Part shown: in pieces, positions 528 to 27,630 of the stretch | Layout: every line of letters starts with the position of its first letter | Numbering within the stretch: position 1 is the stretch's first letter | Source: a virus | Reading direction: 5' to 3' (one strand) | Length of the DNA: 35,128 bases | Virus record (IMG/VR): IMGVR_UViG_3300047316_000240 | Location: 1-35,128 of that record | Program-made: the position numbers and the translations under genes | The notes under the pieces: model-generated | Databases searched by the model: none | Seen by the model: the letters and a program-made list of their open reading frames with translations, nothing else | Told to the model about the DNA's origin: nothing

Positions 528-748
528 TGACACGAACCGAGCAACAGGCGATCGCCGACCAGATGATCGGCGCGGCGCAACAGTTGGAGAAGACGGCGCG
601 CCAGCTCAAAGAGCAGGCCACCTCAGCCGAGGCCGCACCCGTGGAGAGGCCAGATAACCGCGACACCTGTTCTCACTGTGGGGAGCGTCACTCTAGCCAC
701 ATTGGTTGCCGGTCAGATTGGACTGGCGTTGACAAACATGGCCGCTAA
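527..748 (+). CDS. Small helical / CxxC protein, mosaic
   Basis: A 73-aa protein with a helical N-terminus rich in Gln, Glu and Lys (residues 1-33), then a linker AEAAPVERPD and a Cys/His segment CSHCGERHSSH, probably metal-binding. The start is coupled to the upstream stop (TAATG). The 26 bases encoding the linker are identical to a stretch of the minus-strand gene at 25550-25975. A second 26-base block just after this gene (751-776) matches the 3' end of that same gene. This looks like a recombinant relative of it. Function unknown. Confidence 0.65.
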   Translation: MTRTEQQAIADQMIGAAQQLEKTARQLKEQATSAEAAPVERPDNRDTCSHCGERHSSHIGCRSDWTGVDKHGR

Positions 749-799
749 GCCTGCCCTTCCCCCGTCCACGGAGCGCCCGCACGACTGAACCCCAAGCTC

Positions 800-22830: not shown

Positions 22831-24293
22831 TGTGCCATCCAGCTATGCGCGATATCCGGCACCGCCGGCGCCTGCTGCCGCTGCTGCTGCCGCACGCGCA
22901 GGCGGCGCGTCTCGCGCTCGTCCGCCGAGAGTTCGTCCACACAGAAATTCAGGAGCAGATGTTCGATGGCGTGCATGACGTTGGCGTACTCGTCATCTTC
23001 GTGCGGTTGCCGGACGTCCTTGTTGGACACGCTGATCGTATGCTCACTCCACACGTACCCGCCTTCGAAGGCGAACGCGGCGAACGCCATCGGCTTGTCG
23101 GTGCCGTCCAGACTCACCGAGCGCCAGCGGTCGGGCGCATCGGCAATGCTGAGCGCCGGCCCGTGGTCCCGCGTCTGCCGGCGCAACAAGCTGGAGATTT
23201 CCTCGATGACGGCGAGCCGGACATCGGGCGCGTTGCCGCCGTCGCGCCACTCCGGCCGATAGCCGGCCTGTTCGAGCTGTCGCAGCATGGTGTAGCGGCC
23301 GAATTTCACTTTCGCTTTCGCGCCCATCGGCGACGTGCAGGTTTTGAACGTCCACGCGTCCGGGGGAAACCACGCGAGCCGCTTCTCGGCGACGATCGGG
23401 AGAAAATCTTCGAGCGCCATGCGCCGGCCGAGCACGCCGCCCAAGAGCGTCAGGCCACCGTAGAACGATCGTTGCGCAACAATCCACACCGGGTTGTGAC
23501 GTCCCACCTCGAACGCTTCGAACAACGGCAAACCGTTGGTGGGCAGCACGGCCCGCACATGGCGAGCGCGATCGAAGTAGTTCTCGTACACCGCATCGCC
23601 GATGACGTTAAGCCCGCGCCGGCCCAAGATCACCGTCTGGTGTTTCGGATGCTCCGGCGGATAGGCCGTCAGCATTGTCTCGATCATGTCGTCCGGTAAG
23701 TTGTGCGCGTTGTCGAACAGCGAGAACGCGTAATACTTGCGGCCCTTGATGGTGTTGCTCTCGGGAAACTGTTTCGCCAGCCAGTGTTCTTCATTGCAGG
23801 GATTCGGGCTGAACGTCAGTTGCCGCGGATAGGTTTTGCCGCGCACGCGCGCCTCGATGTCGGGACGCAGACGGGCGCGAAGTTCGAGCGCGAGATCGGC
23901 GGGCAACTGCTCGGCCTGATCCACGTAGATGCGCGAGACGGGCAGGCCGCGAATTTTCGCGTACCGATCTTCCGCGCGGGACGATTGCGTCTTGAGGCCG
24001 AACGCAAACACGCGCGAGCCGTTCAATGTGTCGTACGCGCTCTCATCGTCGTTCCACTTGAGCGTCGTGTTGTGCAGCCGGGCGAGCTGTTCGAACTGTG
24101 GACGCAGCAACGTGTCGGTCGCGTCGCCGGTGTAGCGCGCGATCAGAATCCAGATCCCCGGATGGCGGCGCAGTGCCTCCAGTTCTTTCCATAAACACGC
24201 AACAGTTTTTCCACTACTGAGCGCGCCCTCCGCATCTATTTCGCTACTGCGATCGCGCAGAAATTCGAGATGTTTGCCTCTAAATTCCAGCAT
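22827..24293 (-). CDS. terL: Terminase large subunit
   Basis: A 488-aa protein (P22 TerL 499 aa). Walker A-like GALSSGKT (23-30), Walker B region RIYVDQAEQL (121-130), coupling motif FSPNP (about 159), and a C-terminal nuclease region with FEAFEVGRHNPVWIV. It cuts concatemeric DNA and drives ATP-dependent packaging through the portal. The first about 35 codons are AT-richer and differently coded from the rest. A divergent duplicate of residues 3-21 lies at 25288-25377 on the far side of an endonuclease gene, so this N-terminus seems to be a replacement. Confidence 0.9.
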   Translation of the reverse strand: MLEFRGKHLEFLRDRSSEIDAEGALSSGKTVACLWKELEALRRHPGIWILIARYTGDATDTLLRPQFEQLARLHNTTLKWNDDESAYDTLNGSRVFAFGLKTQSSRAEDRYAKIRGLPVSRIYVDQAEQLPADLALELRARLRPDIEARVRGKTYPRQLTFSPNPCNEEHWLAKQFPESNTIKGRKYYAFSLFDNAHNLPDDMIETMLTAYPPEHPKHQTVILGRRGLNVIGDAVYENYFDRARHVRAVLPTNGLPLFEAFEVGRHNPVWIVAQRSFYGGLTLLGGVLGRRMALEDFLPIVAEKRLAWFPPDAWTFKTCTSPMGAKAKVKFGRYTMLRQLEQAGYRPEWRDGGNAPDVRLAVIEEISSLLRRQTRDHGPALSIADAPDRWRSVSLDGTDKPMAFAAFAFEGGYVWSEHTISVSNKDVRQPHEDDEYANVMHAIEHLLLNFCVDELSADERETRRLRVRQQQRQQAPAVPDIAHSWMAQ

Positions 24294-24305
24294 GGGCCAG
24301 CCCTC

Positions 24306-25157
24306 TCAGGACGCCTTGTGCTGCGTGAGATATTCAATGGCCTTCAACAGTAACGCCGGATTGTCTCGGAAGTTGCCCAGTCCGGTGTTGCAGTGATGAC
24401 ATAGCAGTGCCCGCACTTTATTGGTCGCGTGATCATGATCAACGGAGAGCCGACGCGTTTTTGTCCGATCCTCACAACCGCAGATCGCGCAACAGTTATT
24501 CTGATGGCTCAACATCTCGCGGTAGGTCGCGAGCGTTATCCCGAATTTAGCTTTGAGCCGACGATCGAGATGTTTGACATTGACCTCGGCTTTGCCGACG
24601 ATTCCTCGCTGACGTTTCATTTGAGTGCTTATCCTGTCGCGATGCTTCGCATAATATGCCGCTGATTTCAACCGCCCATTTTCTCGAAACGCCGGATCGT
24701 TCAATCGCCTGATTCTCTGTCGTCCAGCACTCTTACTCCGCTGTGTCGGCGTCTGTTTGTATTCACTCCTACATGTGATGCACCACGCATCGCGAAACCG
24801 TTCATCTTTCCCGCGATTGTGTCGTTTGAGCCATCTGAAACGGCGCTGAATTTGCCCGATATGGCAGCGAGCGCATTTTTTCGTGCGTGATTCATCAGCG
24901 GCGAGAGCCGCCCGATGATCCAGCCGCGGGCCGCCGCGCTGACCAACCGCCATACATTGGCGAGAGCAGTAGACGCGCTTAGCGACCATCCTGTCCTGTT
25001 TCAACTCCATCGCAACGCCGCACGCTGCGCAGGACACGCGCACACGCTTGCGCCGAGCTGCCCGAGAACATGCCCACGAGCAAAACTGCTGGCCAGCCTC
25101 TGAGGGGCAGACGGTTTTCTCGCGTCCGCAAGCGATGCAGCGAATCACAGCAGGCAT
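24306..25157 (-). CDS. Endonuclease VII-type HNH nuclease
   Basis: A 283-aa protein. The C-terminus has the recombination endonuclease VII pattern: CCAIC (222-226), SVDHDHA (238-244, ββα-metal active site), CHHCNTGLG (253-261). The N-terminal third holds three treble-clef-like Cys clusters (CIAC…C…C, CAAC…C…C, CARC…C…C) for DNA recognition. This class is often encoded by mobile homing genes. The start at 25157 overlaps the membrane-peptide stop (TGATG). Base use is clearly AT-richer than its neighbours. It sits inside the 5' end of terL. Confidence 0.88.
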   Translation of the reverse strand: MPAVIRCIACGREKTVCPSEAGQQFCSWACSRAARRKRVRVSCAACGVAMELKQDRMVAKRVYCSRQCMAVGQRGGPRLDHRAALAADESRTKKCARCHIGQIQRRFRWLKRHNRGKDERFRDAWCITCRSEYKQTPTQRSKSAGRQRIRRLNDPAFRENGRLKSAAYYAKHRDRISTQMKRQRGIVGKAEVNVKHLDRRLKAKFGITLATYREMLSHQNNCCAICGCEDRTKTRRLSVDHDHATNKVRALLCHHCNTGLGNFRDNPALLLKAIEYLTQHKAS

Positions 25158-25294
25158 CAGCGTAGTGGGATGCTTTGCAGCAACAGCGCGATGGACAACA
25201 GCAGTACCGCGATCCATAACGCTGCGCGCCCGAGCGCCGCCATGATCGTGACGATGAACGCCGCCAAGCCAAGGAGTAAGGCGATGGTCAACAT
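25157..25294 (-). CDS. 45-aa membrane peptide, copy 1
   Basis: A 45-aa peptide that is nearly all hydrophobic: two helices (MLTIALLLGLAAFIVTIMAA and AALWIAVLLLSIALLL) separated by LGRA, a hairpin-like two-helix membrane protein. GGAGGAG lies 7 bases upstream. Coupled to endonuclease VII by TGATG. The identical protein is encoded at 27212-27349. Size and topology are holin-like; identity to known holins cannot be judged. Confidence 0.8.
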   Translation of the reverse strand: MLTIALLLGLAAFIVTIMAALGRAALWIAVLLLSIALLLQSIPLR

Positions 25295-25308
25295 GGGGGA
25301 GTCTCCTC
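25164..25308 (-). repeat. 145-bp duplicated unit, copy 1
   Basis: This segment matches 27219-27363 at 136 of 145 positions with no gaps. It covers the membrane peptide gene from its ribosome binding site (GAGGAGACTC) nearly to its stop. All nine differences lie in third or otherwise synonymous positions. Confidence 0.9.
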
Positions 25309-25377
25309 CAAATCGATCTCGGCCGTCTTGTCGTGCAGGAACTCGCGGTGCGGTCCCCGGAAGTCCAGCGCACTCAT
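25288..25377 (-). pseudogene. Relic of the original terL 5' end
   Basis: Twenty-nine codons starting at an ATG coupled to the upstream gene (ATGA, 25374-25377). The peptide LDFRGPHREFLHDKTAEIDLE aligns (split here for reading: FRG-H-EFL-D---EID-E) with residues 3-21 of TerL. Homology stops at the codon before the Walker A motif, where the duplicated membrane-peptide unit begins (ending EETPPC then TGA). DNA identity to the live terL start is low, so it is not a simple tandem duplication. Most likely the old terL start, cut off by the insertion. Confidence 0.75.
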
Positions 25378-25553
25378 GTGGGGCGCTCCGTGGACTTGGC
25401 GATGATCTGATGTGCAGCCTCATGCTTCATGCCGTCATAGAACATTTCGCCGTCACGTTCTATGCCCTGCTGAATCGCGGCATTGACTTCAGGTGTGCAG
25501 ACTTCAGGCAGCACAGGCGGTAATCCACAATGCGGACATACATCTTGGCTCAT
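25374..25553 (-). CDS. Small CxxC protein
   Basis: A 59-aa protein starting MSQDVCPHCGLPPVLPEVC (Cys cluster near the N-terminus), then a charged helix. The ATG overlaps the upstream stop (ATGA) and follows the conserved CCACGGAGCGC junction motif. Its own end (STERPT) overlaps the terL relic start. This placement, directly before the old terL, is where a small terminase subunit would be expected, but the protein is too short to claim that. Confidence 0.6.
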   Translation of the reverse strand: MSQDVCPHCGLPPVLPEVCTPEVNAAIQQGIERDGEMFYDGMKHEAAHQIIAKSTERPT

Positions 25554-25975
25554 GTGCGCTCCGTGGACGGGGGAAGGGCAGCGAGGCGCCGTGCCACGCT
25601 GAGTCCGAATTGGATTACGGCCTCTGAGTCCTGTAGGTGTGTGCGTGGGCCGCTGATAGCGCGAGCTTCCCGCACGATCCAATCCTCAACGCTTTCGGCG
25701 TCCGGCCTCTCCACGGGTGCGGCCTCGGCCCCACAAGTGCAGTCCTCGTAAGGCGGCTGGTAGTTGCTGTAAGCACGACACGCTGTCGTATGCCGTGGTG
25801 CTGGTGTCGCGGCCTCGTGCGCGGAGAGCAGGGCGTCGATATTGTCGGCCCAGTCGTCAGCCTTATCGGCGTAAATCACATCCTGCGAGCCGTAGGAGTG
25901 TGGCCATCGAGACTTCGCGTCTCGCATCTGCTGCGCTAAGGCTCTCAGGCGGGGGACTAATTCAGCGTCACTCAT
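25550..25975 (-). CDS. Hypothetical protein with PRLRAL leader
   Basis: A 141-aa protein. N-terminus MSDAELVPRLRALAQQMRDA, a helical region, a short Cys segment (CTCGAEAAPVERPD) and a C-terminal helical part ending LAALPPSTERT. The N-terminal motif reappears as two leader peptides upstream. Two 26-base blocks of this gene recur on the + strand at 527-776. ATGA overlaps at both ends. Function unknown; appears to be a reservoir of recombining segments. Confidence 0.65.
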   Translation of the reverse strand: MSDAELVPRLRALAQQMRDAKSRWPHSYGSQDVIYADKADDWADNIDALLSAHEAATPAPRHTTACRAYSNYQPPYEDCTCGAEAAPVERPDAESVEDWIVREARAISGPRTHLQDSEAVIQFGLSVARRLAALPPSTERT

Positions 25976-26193
25976 GATTTCGCCTCACTGAGCCACTTCC
26001 ACAACTTGAGGAATGTCTCGACATCGAATGCTTGCCCGTGCTCAATTCGCATCAGTGTGGCGTGGCCGATCTTCGTCTCAGCCGAGAGATCGCGGAGCGA
26101 CAGCATTCGCATCGTGCGATAGATCCGCACCATCTCACCCAGACGTGTCGGCACGATGCGTCCTGACAACGTCGTCGCACGCGGCTTACTCAT
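25972..26193 (-). CDS. XRE-family HTH regulator (small)
   Basis: A 73-aa protein, essentially a single Cro/CI-type helix-turn-helix: GEMVRIYRTMRMLSLRDLSA with recognition helix IGHATLMRIEHG, then FDVETFLKLWKWL. Binds DNA as a transcription regulator. There is no C-terminal dimerisation domain. The start lies inside the leader mini-ORF (26186-26230), suggesting translation coupling. Targets might include the palindromes at 28304-28349 or the control region at 30140-30310. Confidence 0.8.
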   Translation of the reverse strand: MSKPRATTLSGRIVPTRLGEMVRIYRTMRMLSLRDLSAETKIGHATLMRIEHGQAFDVETFLKLWKWLSEAKS

Positions 26194-26230
26194 GTAGGGC
26201 TCTCAGGCGGGGGATCAGCGGATCAGTCAA
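26186..26230 (-). CDS. 14-aa leader peptide (xTDPLIPRLRALHE)
   Basis: Starts at a TTG 7 bases after TGAGG and ends overlapping the XRE start codon. It encodes nearly the same peptide as the mini-ORF at 26968-27003 and the start of the gene at 25975. It may act by translational coupling, or be the relic of a gene N-terminus left by an insertion. Confidence 0.45.
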   Translation of the reverse strand: MTDPLIPRLRALHE

Positions 26231-26238
26231 TGGACACC

Positions 26239-26967
26239 TCAATCTGTGCAAAAGCAATCTTGCAATTCACCGAGCGGGGCGAACAGATCGCCTTGATTGA
26301 GCAGTTCCGCATAGCTGGGCGTGTCCTTCCGAAAGGTTGAGCCTATACGCGCCTCTTGCTCCATCCACCAGACGCCCAAGTCGGGCCGATCGCGCATGAT
26401 CTGGCGACGTTTACCGGGACTCTTCAGGAAACAGAGATCGCAATTGCCCTCATGCGGCCGGAGTTGAAGATCGAAGGGCTGTTTGTCCCAGAAGGCCATG
26501 ACATCCACCACGGAGACACCGGCATCAGCTAACGGTAATGTGATACTCCACCGTTCGTGTCGCTGTTCGTCAGCCGCTCGCATCTTGGCGACACGGCGAG
26601 GCTCATCGGCCCTGATGCCGACTACGTTCGTCCAGTGCTCATACCCACGGCCGCGCATCCAATCGCGCATCGGGCGGATCTTGAGTTCCTGCGTGCAGAA
26701 TCGAAACACCGGATTCGGCAATCCGCGATCCGTAATCAATTGTTCAAAGCCGCCTTCACGTTTGACCCACACGATCGGCACACACCATTGCCTCGCGATT
26801 TCGTTCACAAATCGATAGGTTTCCACTCGTTCCTTGAGCGTATCGGCAAAGAGCACATGCACATCTGGCCGGAGTCCTTCATCGAGAATCCGTCGCAGCA
26901 TGTAGGCGCTCGTGCGTCCTCCTGAGAACGAAATCACGGCTGGACCGTCAATCTGAAATGGGTTCAT
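26239..26967 (-). CDS. PAPS-reductase-like PP-loop enzyme
   Basis: A 242-aa protein of the adenine nucleotide alpha-hydrolase fold. PP-loop SFSGGRTSAYM (13-23), then LFADTLKERVETY, FCTQELKIRPM (Cys near 91), GIRADEPRR, and NCDLCFLKSPGKR. The phage members of this family (DUF/‘phosphoadenosine phosphosulfate reductase’ domain) are common, but their reaction is unproven; sulfate assimilation or DndC-like DNA sulfur modification are known relatives. No dnd genes are nearby. The start follows directly on a leader peptide stop (TAAATG). Confidence 0.85.
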   Translation of the reverse strand: MNPFQIDGPAVISFSGGRTSAYMLRRILDEGLRPDVHVLFADTLKERVETYRFVNEIARQWCVPIVWVKREGGFEQLITDRGLPNPVFRFCTQELKIRPMRDWMRGRGYEHWTNVVGIRADEPRRVAKMRAADEQRHERWSITLPLADAGVSVVDVMAFWDKQPFDLQLRPHEGNCDLCFLKSPGKRRQIMRDRPDLGVWWMEQEARIGSTFRKDTPSYAELLNQGDLFAPLGELQDCFCTD

Positions 26968-27003
26968 TTAGGCTCTAAGGCGGGGGATCAGTGGATCAGT
27001 CAT
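26968..27003 (-). CDS. 11-aa leader peptide MTDPLIPRLRA
   Basis: Starts in ATGA overlap with the upstream Cys-rich gene, after the CCACGGAGCGC junction motif, and ends TAA directly before the ATG of the PP-loop enzyme. Same peptide as in the leader at 26186-26230. Probably links translation of neighbouring genes, or is a gene-start relic. Confidence 0.5.
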   Translation of the reverse strand: MTDPLIPRLRA

Positions 27004-27212
27004 GGCTCGCGCTCCGTGGGGGGAGATGTGGTGAACCACTGCAGCCGCGCGCCACGACACCGGCGGCATCCGCGGCTCTGGCATTGGGCATGGTGCGACT
27101 GCGCCCGTCGCCACGCCGCTATCGCGGGCGTGTCTTTGATGTGTTGCAGGATCATGCCTGAACACCCGCAGGATCCACACTGCCAGTGCCGCCGCTGATA
27201 AGGGTCATTCAT
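27000..27212 (-). CDS. Small Cys/His-rich protein
   Basis: A 70-aa protein: MNDPYQRRHWQCGSCGCSGM, a helical middle (DTPAIAAWRRAQSHHAQC) and a second cluster CRRC, consistent with one or two zinc sites. The ATG overlaps the membrane-peptide stop (TGATG), exactly as endonuclease VII does after copy 1, so both copies of the membrane peptide are followed by a zinc-cluster protein. Ends in TEREP, overlapping the leader peptide. Confidence 0.65.
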   Translation of the reverse strand: MNDPYQRRHWQCGSCGCSGMILQHIKDTPAIAAWRRAQSHHAQCQSRGCRRCRGARLQWFTTSPPTEREP

Positions 27213-27349
27213 CATCGCAGTGGGATGCTTTGCAATAAGAGCGCGATGGAGAGCAGCAGGACCGCGATCCACAACGCTGCGCGCCCGAGCGCCGCCATGA
27301 TCGTGACGATGAACGCCGCCAAGCCAAGGAGCAACGCGATGGTCAACAT
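27212..27349 (-). CDS. 45-aa membrane peptide, copy 2
   Basis: Encodes exactly the same 45 residues as copy 1 (25157-25294) although the DNA differs at nine sites. The same GGAGGAG ribosome binding site and the same TGATG coupling to the next gene are present. Conservation of the protein against synonymous drift shows it is selected. Confidence 0.8.
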   Translation of the reverse strand: MLTIALLLGLAAFIVTIMAALGRAALWIAVLLLSIALLLQSIPLR

Positions 27350-27363
27350 GGGGGAGTCTCCTC
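27219..27363 (-). repeat. 145-bp duplicated unit, copy 2
   Basis: Second copy of the unit at 25164-25308, same orientation, about 2.05 kb away, 94% identical. Similarity ends sharply at GAGGAG on one side and within the last codons of the peptide on the other. Confidence 0.9.
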
Positions 27364-27630
27364 GTTCAGTGCGCGGACGATTTCCGGGGCGCGTAGCGCG
27401 TCGTGGATGCGGAGTGTCGGGATCCAGACGATGAAGCCGGTCATGGGAAACCGGTTCAACGCGAGATCCGTCGCCGTGATCTGGTTCGTGCCAAACGTCA
27501 GCAATGTGTCACCCCGCCGCCGCGTCCGGGCGTTGGTCAGGCTCGTGATCAGGGACTGCACGCGGATGTGCGGTTCGCCCACGCGCGTCAGAAGGTCGAG
27601 AATCCCGAGCGGGAGATGCACGTCGTTCAT
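27343..27630 (-). CDS. Hypothetical protein, 3' end replaced by repeat
   Basis: A 95-aa protein, strand-rich (LLTFGTNQITATDLALNRFP, MTGFIVWIPTLRIHDAL). Its last residues EETPPC come from the duplicated unit and are identical to the end of the terL relic, so the unit has joined onto, and may have truncated, this gene. AGGACG stands 9 bases before the ATG. No family recognised. Confidence 0.6.
   Translation of the reverse strand: MNDVHLPLGILDLLTRVGEPHIRVQSLITSLTNARTRRRGDTLLTFGTNQITATDLALNRFPMTGFIVWIPTLRIHDALRAPEIVRALNEETPPC

Follow-up and report, generated by a model that had tools for sequence, protein, structure and literature searches.

Phage genomes are mosaics in which illegitimate recombination (moron accretion) leaves gene-border joints, short homology, and duplicated fragments of neighboring genes. 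Nuclease genes are frequent at the boundaries of phage genetic exchange, and the terL gene of phage ICP1 carries an intron together with a neighboring nuclease (PMC10448857). Free-standing homing endonucleases of the T4 type have been described in split genes, including mobE in nrdA of Aeh1 and mobA in gene 60 of T4 (PMC2988022). A further arrangement is found in fungal mitochondria, wherein endonuclease ORFs bring a replacement gene end while the native end stays behind as a relic. The described cases are atp6 of Allomyces macrogynus and atp6, atp9, cox2, and nad3 of Glomus sp. (PMC3630166).

The locus examined here comes from an uncultured phage represented by a 35.1-kb IMG/VR record, the whole of which was analyzed and is referred to below as the window. 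The start of terL is present twice in this locus, with an EndoVII-type nuclease gene lying between the two copies. The features of the locus and their coordinates are collected in Table 1.

The terL locus and its closest relative

A domain scan of the window identified a P22-like portal gene and a Terminase_3-type TerL, and every gene at the terL locus and in the adjoining cargo slot is located on the minus strand. At the contig end, positions 1–177 of the window form a tandem repeat with a 64-base period. The analysis is based on this one metagenomic contig and on one close relative, the sister phage L002, whose TerL is 91% identical to that of the window and whose genome shows broad synteny with it at about 75–92% identity by block. 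The terL gene of L002 is single and uninterrupted and occupies the position of the relic, directly behind gene Y in an ATGA overlap, providing an empty, uninterrupted terL site in a related genome. A search of the 39.9-kb L002 record for PF02945 (EndoVII) gave no match.

The gene order in L002 is geneX-TM-Y-terL, as compared with geneX-TM1-Z-PAPS-HTH-Y1-Y2-[terL relic]-TM2-EndoVII-terL in the window. A variable slot is thus delimited by TM on one side and terL on the other. Searches for a TerL homologue in INPHARED and in genome contigs returned none, and a search for a second terL start among the other TerL relatives found one start in each. TerL homology in one further record (L006, 5049–5843) ends at residue 226 and is followed by unrelated sequence, and a separate EndoVII domain is located 4 kb downstream on the opposite strand. 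A TnpB-like gene, judged by eye, lies directly upstream of terL in L009 (1465–2511), and in L008 (1159–3015) the TerL frame extends ~125 codons upstream through a Cys-rich, zinc-ribbon-like stretch that is possibly a fused domain.

Table 1. Features of the terL locus and cargo slot, listed in the direction of transcription of the minus-strand genes
Feature	Coordinates	Strand	Basis
geneX, 95 aa; tail (...EETPPC, stop) overlaps the TM1 start; left slot border	27343..27630	-	74% identical in L002, same order
TM1, 45-aa hydrophobic membrane-protein gene, original copy	27212..27349	-	L002 protein 96% identical
Z, small Cys-rich cargo gene; its end is the shared CCACGGAGCGC...CATGA boundary	27000..27212	-	sequence comparison
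Truncated gene Y start, relic 1 (MTDPLIPRLRA, stop), before the PAPS-reductase-like gene	26968..27003	-	93% over 30 nt to L002 Y start
PAPS-reductase-domain cargo gene	26239..26967	-	PF01507, E=1e-11
Truncated gene Y start, relic 2 (TDPLIPRLRALHE, stop), before the HTH gene	26186..26230	-	32/32 nt identical to L002 Y start
Small HTH-like cargo gene	25972..26193	-	function predicted from sequence alone
Gene Y1, homologue of the L002 gene directly before terL	25550..25975	-	comparison with L002
Gene Y2 (CPHCGLP... module), ATGA overlap with the relic terL start; inside gene Y in L002	25374..25553	-	comparison with L002
Relic ORF, terL codons 1 to ~22 (25377-25309) continued in frame by the terminal codons of the geneX copy (...EETPPC, stop)	25288..25377	-	ORF list, profile, alignment
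Ectopic junction, microhomology 11 nt	25307..25317	-	overlap of L002 matches
154-nt duplicate of 27210-27363: geneX tail, TM, and TGATG; 93% identical	25155..25308	-	sequence comparison
TM2, second copy of the 45-aa membrane-protein gene	25157..25294	-	differs from TM1 at 11 bases
EndoVII/HNH-type nuclease gene, 283 aa when read from the ATG of TGATG; C-terminal catalytic domain	24306..25157	-	PF02945, E=3e-23
Recoded, AT-richer terL head, codons 1 to ~40, through Walker A GALSSGKT	24174..24293	-	codon comparison, GC3 track
Working terL, 488 aa	22827..24293	-	PF04466; 91% to L002

Two starts for one terL gene

The relic ORF comprises 29 codons, opening with MSALDFRGPHREFLHDKTAEIDLE and closing with ETPPC and a stop codon, and it overlaps the preceding gene in an ATGA. 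Its relationship to TerL was probed with a profile of the TerL N-terminus (first 24 columns, 7 relatives), with 40 shuffled windows serving as the control. The relic (25377–25309) scored 47.6 bits (E=4e-14) and the start of the working terL at 24293 scored 36.0 bits, while the next-best place in the window reached 4.9 bits and the best match among the shuffled windows 9.9 bits. Given 47.6 bits against a shuffled best of 9.9, the relic is therefore a genuine terL start. The likeness to TerL covers the first ~23 codons of the relic and stops at EIDLE, ahead of the P-loop. It is confirmed that the terL start exists twice, once as an old, cut-off copy and once as a differently coded working copy. 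A first-pass annotation of this DNA had read the 29-codon ORF as a TerL N-terminus in ATGA coupling and had placed the interruption of terL after codon ~21; both matches lie far above the shuffled best, and the end of the relic at EIDLE and the uninterrupted terL of L002 agree with the proposed interruption. Similarity between the two N-termini, on which that annotation depended, is borne out as well, since the profile matches both.

The relic and the working head share 60% of their bases, and the 21 codons compared include 4 that are identical, 9 that are synonymous, and 8 that are replaced. Both copies have diverged from the terL start of L002, with nucleotide identities of 66.7% (relic) and 65.1% (working head). 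The relic, with a GC3 of 0.90, is the closer to the native gene by GC3, and the working head is nearer to L002 by protein.

The working terL starts downstream of the EndoVII gene and has a complete start of its own with an SD-like GAGAGGG. Codons 2–41 of this gene have a GC3 of 0.42 vs 0.83 for codons 42–488 (Fisher p=9e-8). A GC3 track of the kind suggested in the first-pass annotation was run over the EndoVII gene and terL, and it contains one strong step, positioned at 24173 (interval 24191–24137) just past Walker A (2dlnL=58 vs <=17 in 300 permutations). The EndoVII gene and the first ~40 codons of terL consequently form one AT-richer tract with a sharp end. That annotation was thus correct in having the AT-richer coding fade out near 24180, and its description of a second, recoded terL 5' end contiguous with the nuclease gene stands. 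When terL is compared with that of L002 in blocks of 20 codons, identity is 65% in the first block, 80% in the second, and mostly 85–97% thereafter.

The left junction and the cargo slot

The relic does not lead into the nuclease gene. Instead, it continues from 25308 into a copy of 27363–27210, a feature that is new relative to the first-pass annotation, and the TGATG that closes this duplicate is the place where the next gene starts. TM1 and TM2 have an exact shared stretch of 59 nt, and the base differences between them are all synonymous (8% within the gene). Two matches to L002 meet at the joint, one to its terL start, which extends as far as 25307, and one to its geneX tail, which begins at 25317, so that they overlap by 11 nt; the terL sequence here is ATCGATTTGGAGG and the geneX sequence ATCGACGTAGAGG. 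The insert is therefore not flanked directly by the two halves of a target, as it would be for a homing element, because the 154-nt copy of the geneX tail and TM intervenes. The inserted unit envisaged in the first-pass annotation, a nuclease element fitted into terL, is not supported: the left joint connects terL to the geneX tail and a duplicated TM gene, the PAPS and HTH genes sit behind truncated starts of gene Y in a similar manner, and the other EndoVII loci examined have no such duplication.

The cargo genes upstream of the relic carry similar marks. The gene Y start pattern, GATCC-CTGATCCCCCGCCT-AGAGCC, is present as truncated copies before the PAPS and HTH genes (26186–27003 region), and gene ends of the type CCACGGAGCGC...CATGA are also repeated in the slot. 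The beheaded and re-headed pattern at the PAPS and HTH genes resembles that of terL, with the nuclease absent. Taken together, the truncated Y starts, the repeated gene ends, and the Y2 repeats show that duplicated borders beside cargo are a habit of the slot, and such borders need no nuclease. The EndoVII gene itself follows TM2 and takes up the slot position there. Short homology, duplicated fragments of neighboring genes, and variable gene content, which characterize the joints of a mosaic slot, are all found here.

Two further observations concern gene Y. In L002 (5546–5760), the CPHCGLP module is embedded in frame in gene Y and flanked by 17-nt direct repeats, an arrangement indicative of domain hopping. 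At the other end of the window and on the opposite strand, positions 621–778 (plus strand) contain short pieces nearly identical to gene Y at 25701–25729 and 25556–25581.

The nuclease gene

The PF02945 match of the nuclease scores 81.8 bits against a curated cut-off of 23.6, and alignment to 1e7d and 3fc3 locates the D-H-D-H residues and the zinc cysteines expected of the EndoVII family. The catalytic domain appears, by alignment, to be intact, and the protein is a predicted nuclease that may be either a homing enzyme or a resolvase-like passenger. The nuclease gene had been described in the first-pass annotation as AT-richer. Its GC3 of 0.60 upholds that description, but the property is not distinctive, because other slot genes are about as AT-rich (Y2, 0.56; PAPS, 0.62). 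An AT-rich nuclease alone was dropped as a mark of foreignness on account of these similar values.

A close search for EndoVII relatives in viral contigs gave only distant matches, and a profile search yielded 80 loci. At 69 EndoVII loci other than that of the window, the beginning of the downstream gene was matched against the 900 nt preceding the nuclease, and no convincing duplicated downstream start was found among them (a score of 72 for the window vs <=54 elsewhere). The runner-up scores are mostly arginine-rich, low-complexity matches, and the cross-locus null has a 99% quantile of 45 with one value of 115. Neither the TerL relatives nor these 69 loci show a recurrence at the same site in another genome. 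Mycobacterium phage Vincenzo has an EndoVII-like frame in the region of its terL intein, which associates the nuclease family with a mobile element in terL. This frame (L047, 3806–4390) differs from the frame of the annotated terminase-intein ORF and represents an overlapping endonuclease ORF. The Vincenzo terL intein was considered as a same-site case and ruled out, as it sits after ILIQ, far beyond the P-loop.

Origin of the locus

The locus is proposed, with confidence slightly above even, to be a recombination scar in a gene-swapping cargo slot that was left when two related phages recombined ectopically. In this phage group, geneX and TM mark the left border of the variable slot and terL the right border. 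A putative parent, phage A, with the slot Z-PAPS-HTH-Y1-Y2, would have been broken in terL at about codon 22, and the broken end would have been joined by short homology (EIDLE of terL vs VIDVEE of the geneX tail) to the geneX tail of a second putative parent, phage B. The slot of phage B would have held EndoVII, and this phage would have donated TM, EndoVII, and a complete, AT-richer terL head, leaving the beheaded terL of phage A as a 29-codon ORF that stays in frame. The head would have been fused to the terL body through homologous exchange within the conserved P-loop region, the change point being at codon ~41. The short relic ORF may still couple translation from Y2 to TM2 via the overlapping stop and start codons. 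We infer the two parents, the order of these events, and the translational coupling from the arrangement of the locus.

Several results argue for slot exchange. The relic and the duplicated module are found alongside a sister phage with an uninterrupted terL, the gene order of L002 identifies the borders, and the joint contains an 11-nt overlap. Furthermore, the same type of joint precedes the PAPS and HTH genes without a nuclease, no convincing duplicated start accompanies EndoVII at the 69 other loci, the other TerL relatives have a single terL start, and phage nuclease genes are often located at exchange boundaries (PMC10448857). The differences between TM1 and TM2 are synonymous, as are many of those between the relic and the working head, which both keep the family motif; these copies therefore diverged while functional, which suggests two lineages rather than duplication followed by decay. 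The postulated parent B (geneX-TM-EndoVII-terL) was sought via other TM and slot contexts and was not found.

Two further results weigh against slot exchange and lead to its main rival, nuclease-driven homing with one-sided repair, which is live but doubtful. An EndoVII resident beside terL in a donor would have cut the conserved terL of a recipient before the P-loop. The right end would then have invaded the donor terL and copied the donor head, EndoVII, and TM in the leftward direction, and microhomology at the geneX tail would have allowed the copy to be sealed to the cut left end. On this view, the recoded head would correspond to the site in its uncut form. The breakpoints at codons ~22 and ~41, that is, the ends of the relic and of the recoded tract, lie within about 20 codons of each other, and a single break in terL explains this proximity better than two independent crossovers. 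In addition, the nuclease and terL codons 1 to ~40 are contiguous and share an AT-rich composition, as co-conversion with the nuclease predicts; the donor is absent from the search results. The T4 td homing system provides a documented case of one-sided, illegitimate double-strand-break repair that leaves microhomology junctions (PMC2988022), and the EndoVII-like frame of Vincenzo also favors homing. These points are countered by the lack of a second case, as neither the 69 EndoVII loci nor the other TerL relatives have a convincing duplicated start, and by the joints of the same type at the PAPS and HTH genes. Moreover, relatives of EndoVII include the T4 recombination endonuclease and a restriction enzyme, not homing enzymes alone. 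The more specific claim, that EndoVII homes into terL before the P-loop with its own cleavage-resistant recoded head and thereby restores an essential gene without an intron, intein, or split protein, is unlikely.

An assembly chimera, in which an assembler or a chimeric read produced the relic/TM2 joint from a mixed population of related phages, is improbable. The contig is a single metagenomic one, its exact 59-nt TM stretch could mislead an assembler, and near-identical records may exist outside the searches; however, the ~11 nt shared at the relic/TM2 joint are too short for usual assembly overlaps, the in-frame fusion preserves the chain of overlapping stop and start codons, and a context switch within TM would leave the same joint anyway. 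It is very improbable that the segment was duplicated in a single genome, that the copies then diverged, and that EndoVII was a later arrival. While a tandem copy reaching from the geneX tail to terL codon 22 yields the same order of parts, and the TM copies are 93% identical, the relic and the head differ at 40% of bases as opposed to 8% within the TM gene. Of the two, the relic is also the better match to the TerL family, and its GC3 is that of the genome; neither sequence thus has the appearance of a copy of the other in decay.

An intron or intein, with the relic as exon 1 spliced to terL codon 22 onwards, is extremely improbable: the relic does break off where the P-loop segment of terL would come next, and a spliced phage terL is known from ICP1 (PMC10448857), but the working terL needs no upstream exon to supply its start, the relic is followed by the translated copy of a different pair of genes, and an Rfam search found no intron RNA at gathering score in the window and no relevant match at E<=5 in 24050–25500, in keeping with the first-pass view that terL is restored without an intron or any splicing.

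Comparison with known systems

Slot exchange would place the locus within phage mosaicism, with which it shares gene-border joints, short homology, and duplicated fragments of neighboring genes. It departs from that pattern by including a recoded head that replaces the one of an essential gene. The nuclease has the same catalytic domain, D-H-D-H residues, and zinc cysteines as T4 endonuclease VII (PDB 1e7d) and Hpy99I (PDB 3fc3), and it differs from both in a long N-terminal Cys-rich region that is GC-richer than the rest of the gene.

As in the HEG islands (PMC10448857), the nuclease gene adjoins an essential gene, terL, at a recombination boundary. The available part of that source does not describe a displaced duplicate gene start, and the nuclease families it names are T5orf172, IPA-HNH, and HNH-3 rather than EndoVII. 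The mobE and mobA cases are similar in that an essential phage gene is split by the gene for a nuclease. There, the split gene remains divided and its two parts come together again at the protein level, in contrast to the one intact terL and the relic found here.

The architecture has a described precedent in the gene-end-replacing ORFs of fungal mitochondria. In both, an endonuclease ORF is located between a foreign working end and a displaced native relic, no splicing is needed, and DNA identity is low (63.5% for atp6) while the protein is conserved. The fungal replacements affect the 3' end and involve LAGLIDADG or GIY-YIG enzymes, whereas here the 5' end of a phage gene is replaced beside an EndoVII-type nuclease, and there is an additional duplicated module upstream, which would not be expected from a simple insertion. 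The literature searched yielded no case of a phage terL with a replaced 5' end, which is not proof of absence.

The locus shows how a phage can gain genes next to an essential gene and still keep that gene: the truncated start persists as a short ORF in a chain of overlapping genes, and the incoming DNA supplies a new and complete head. Should the nuclease be a passenger, the locus clearly documents the growth of a cargo slot beside terL. Should the nuclease be the driver, the locus would represent a phage instance, at the 5' end, of the insertion strategy known from fungal mitochondria.
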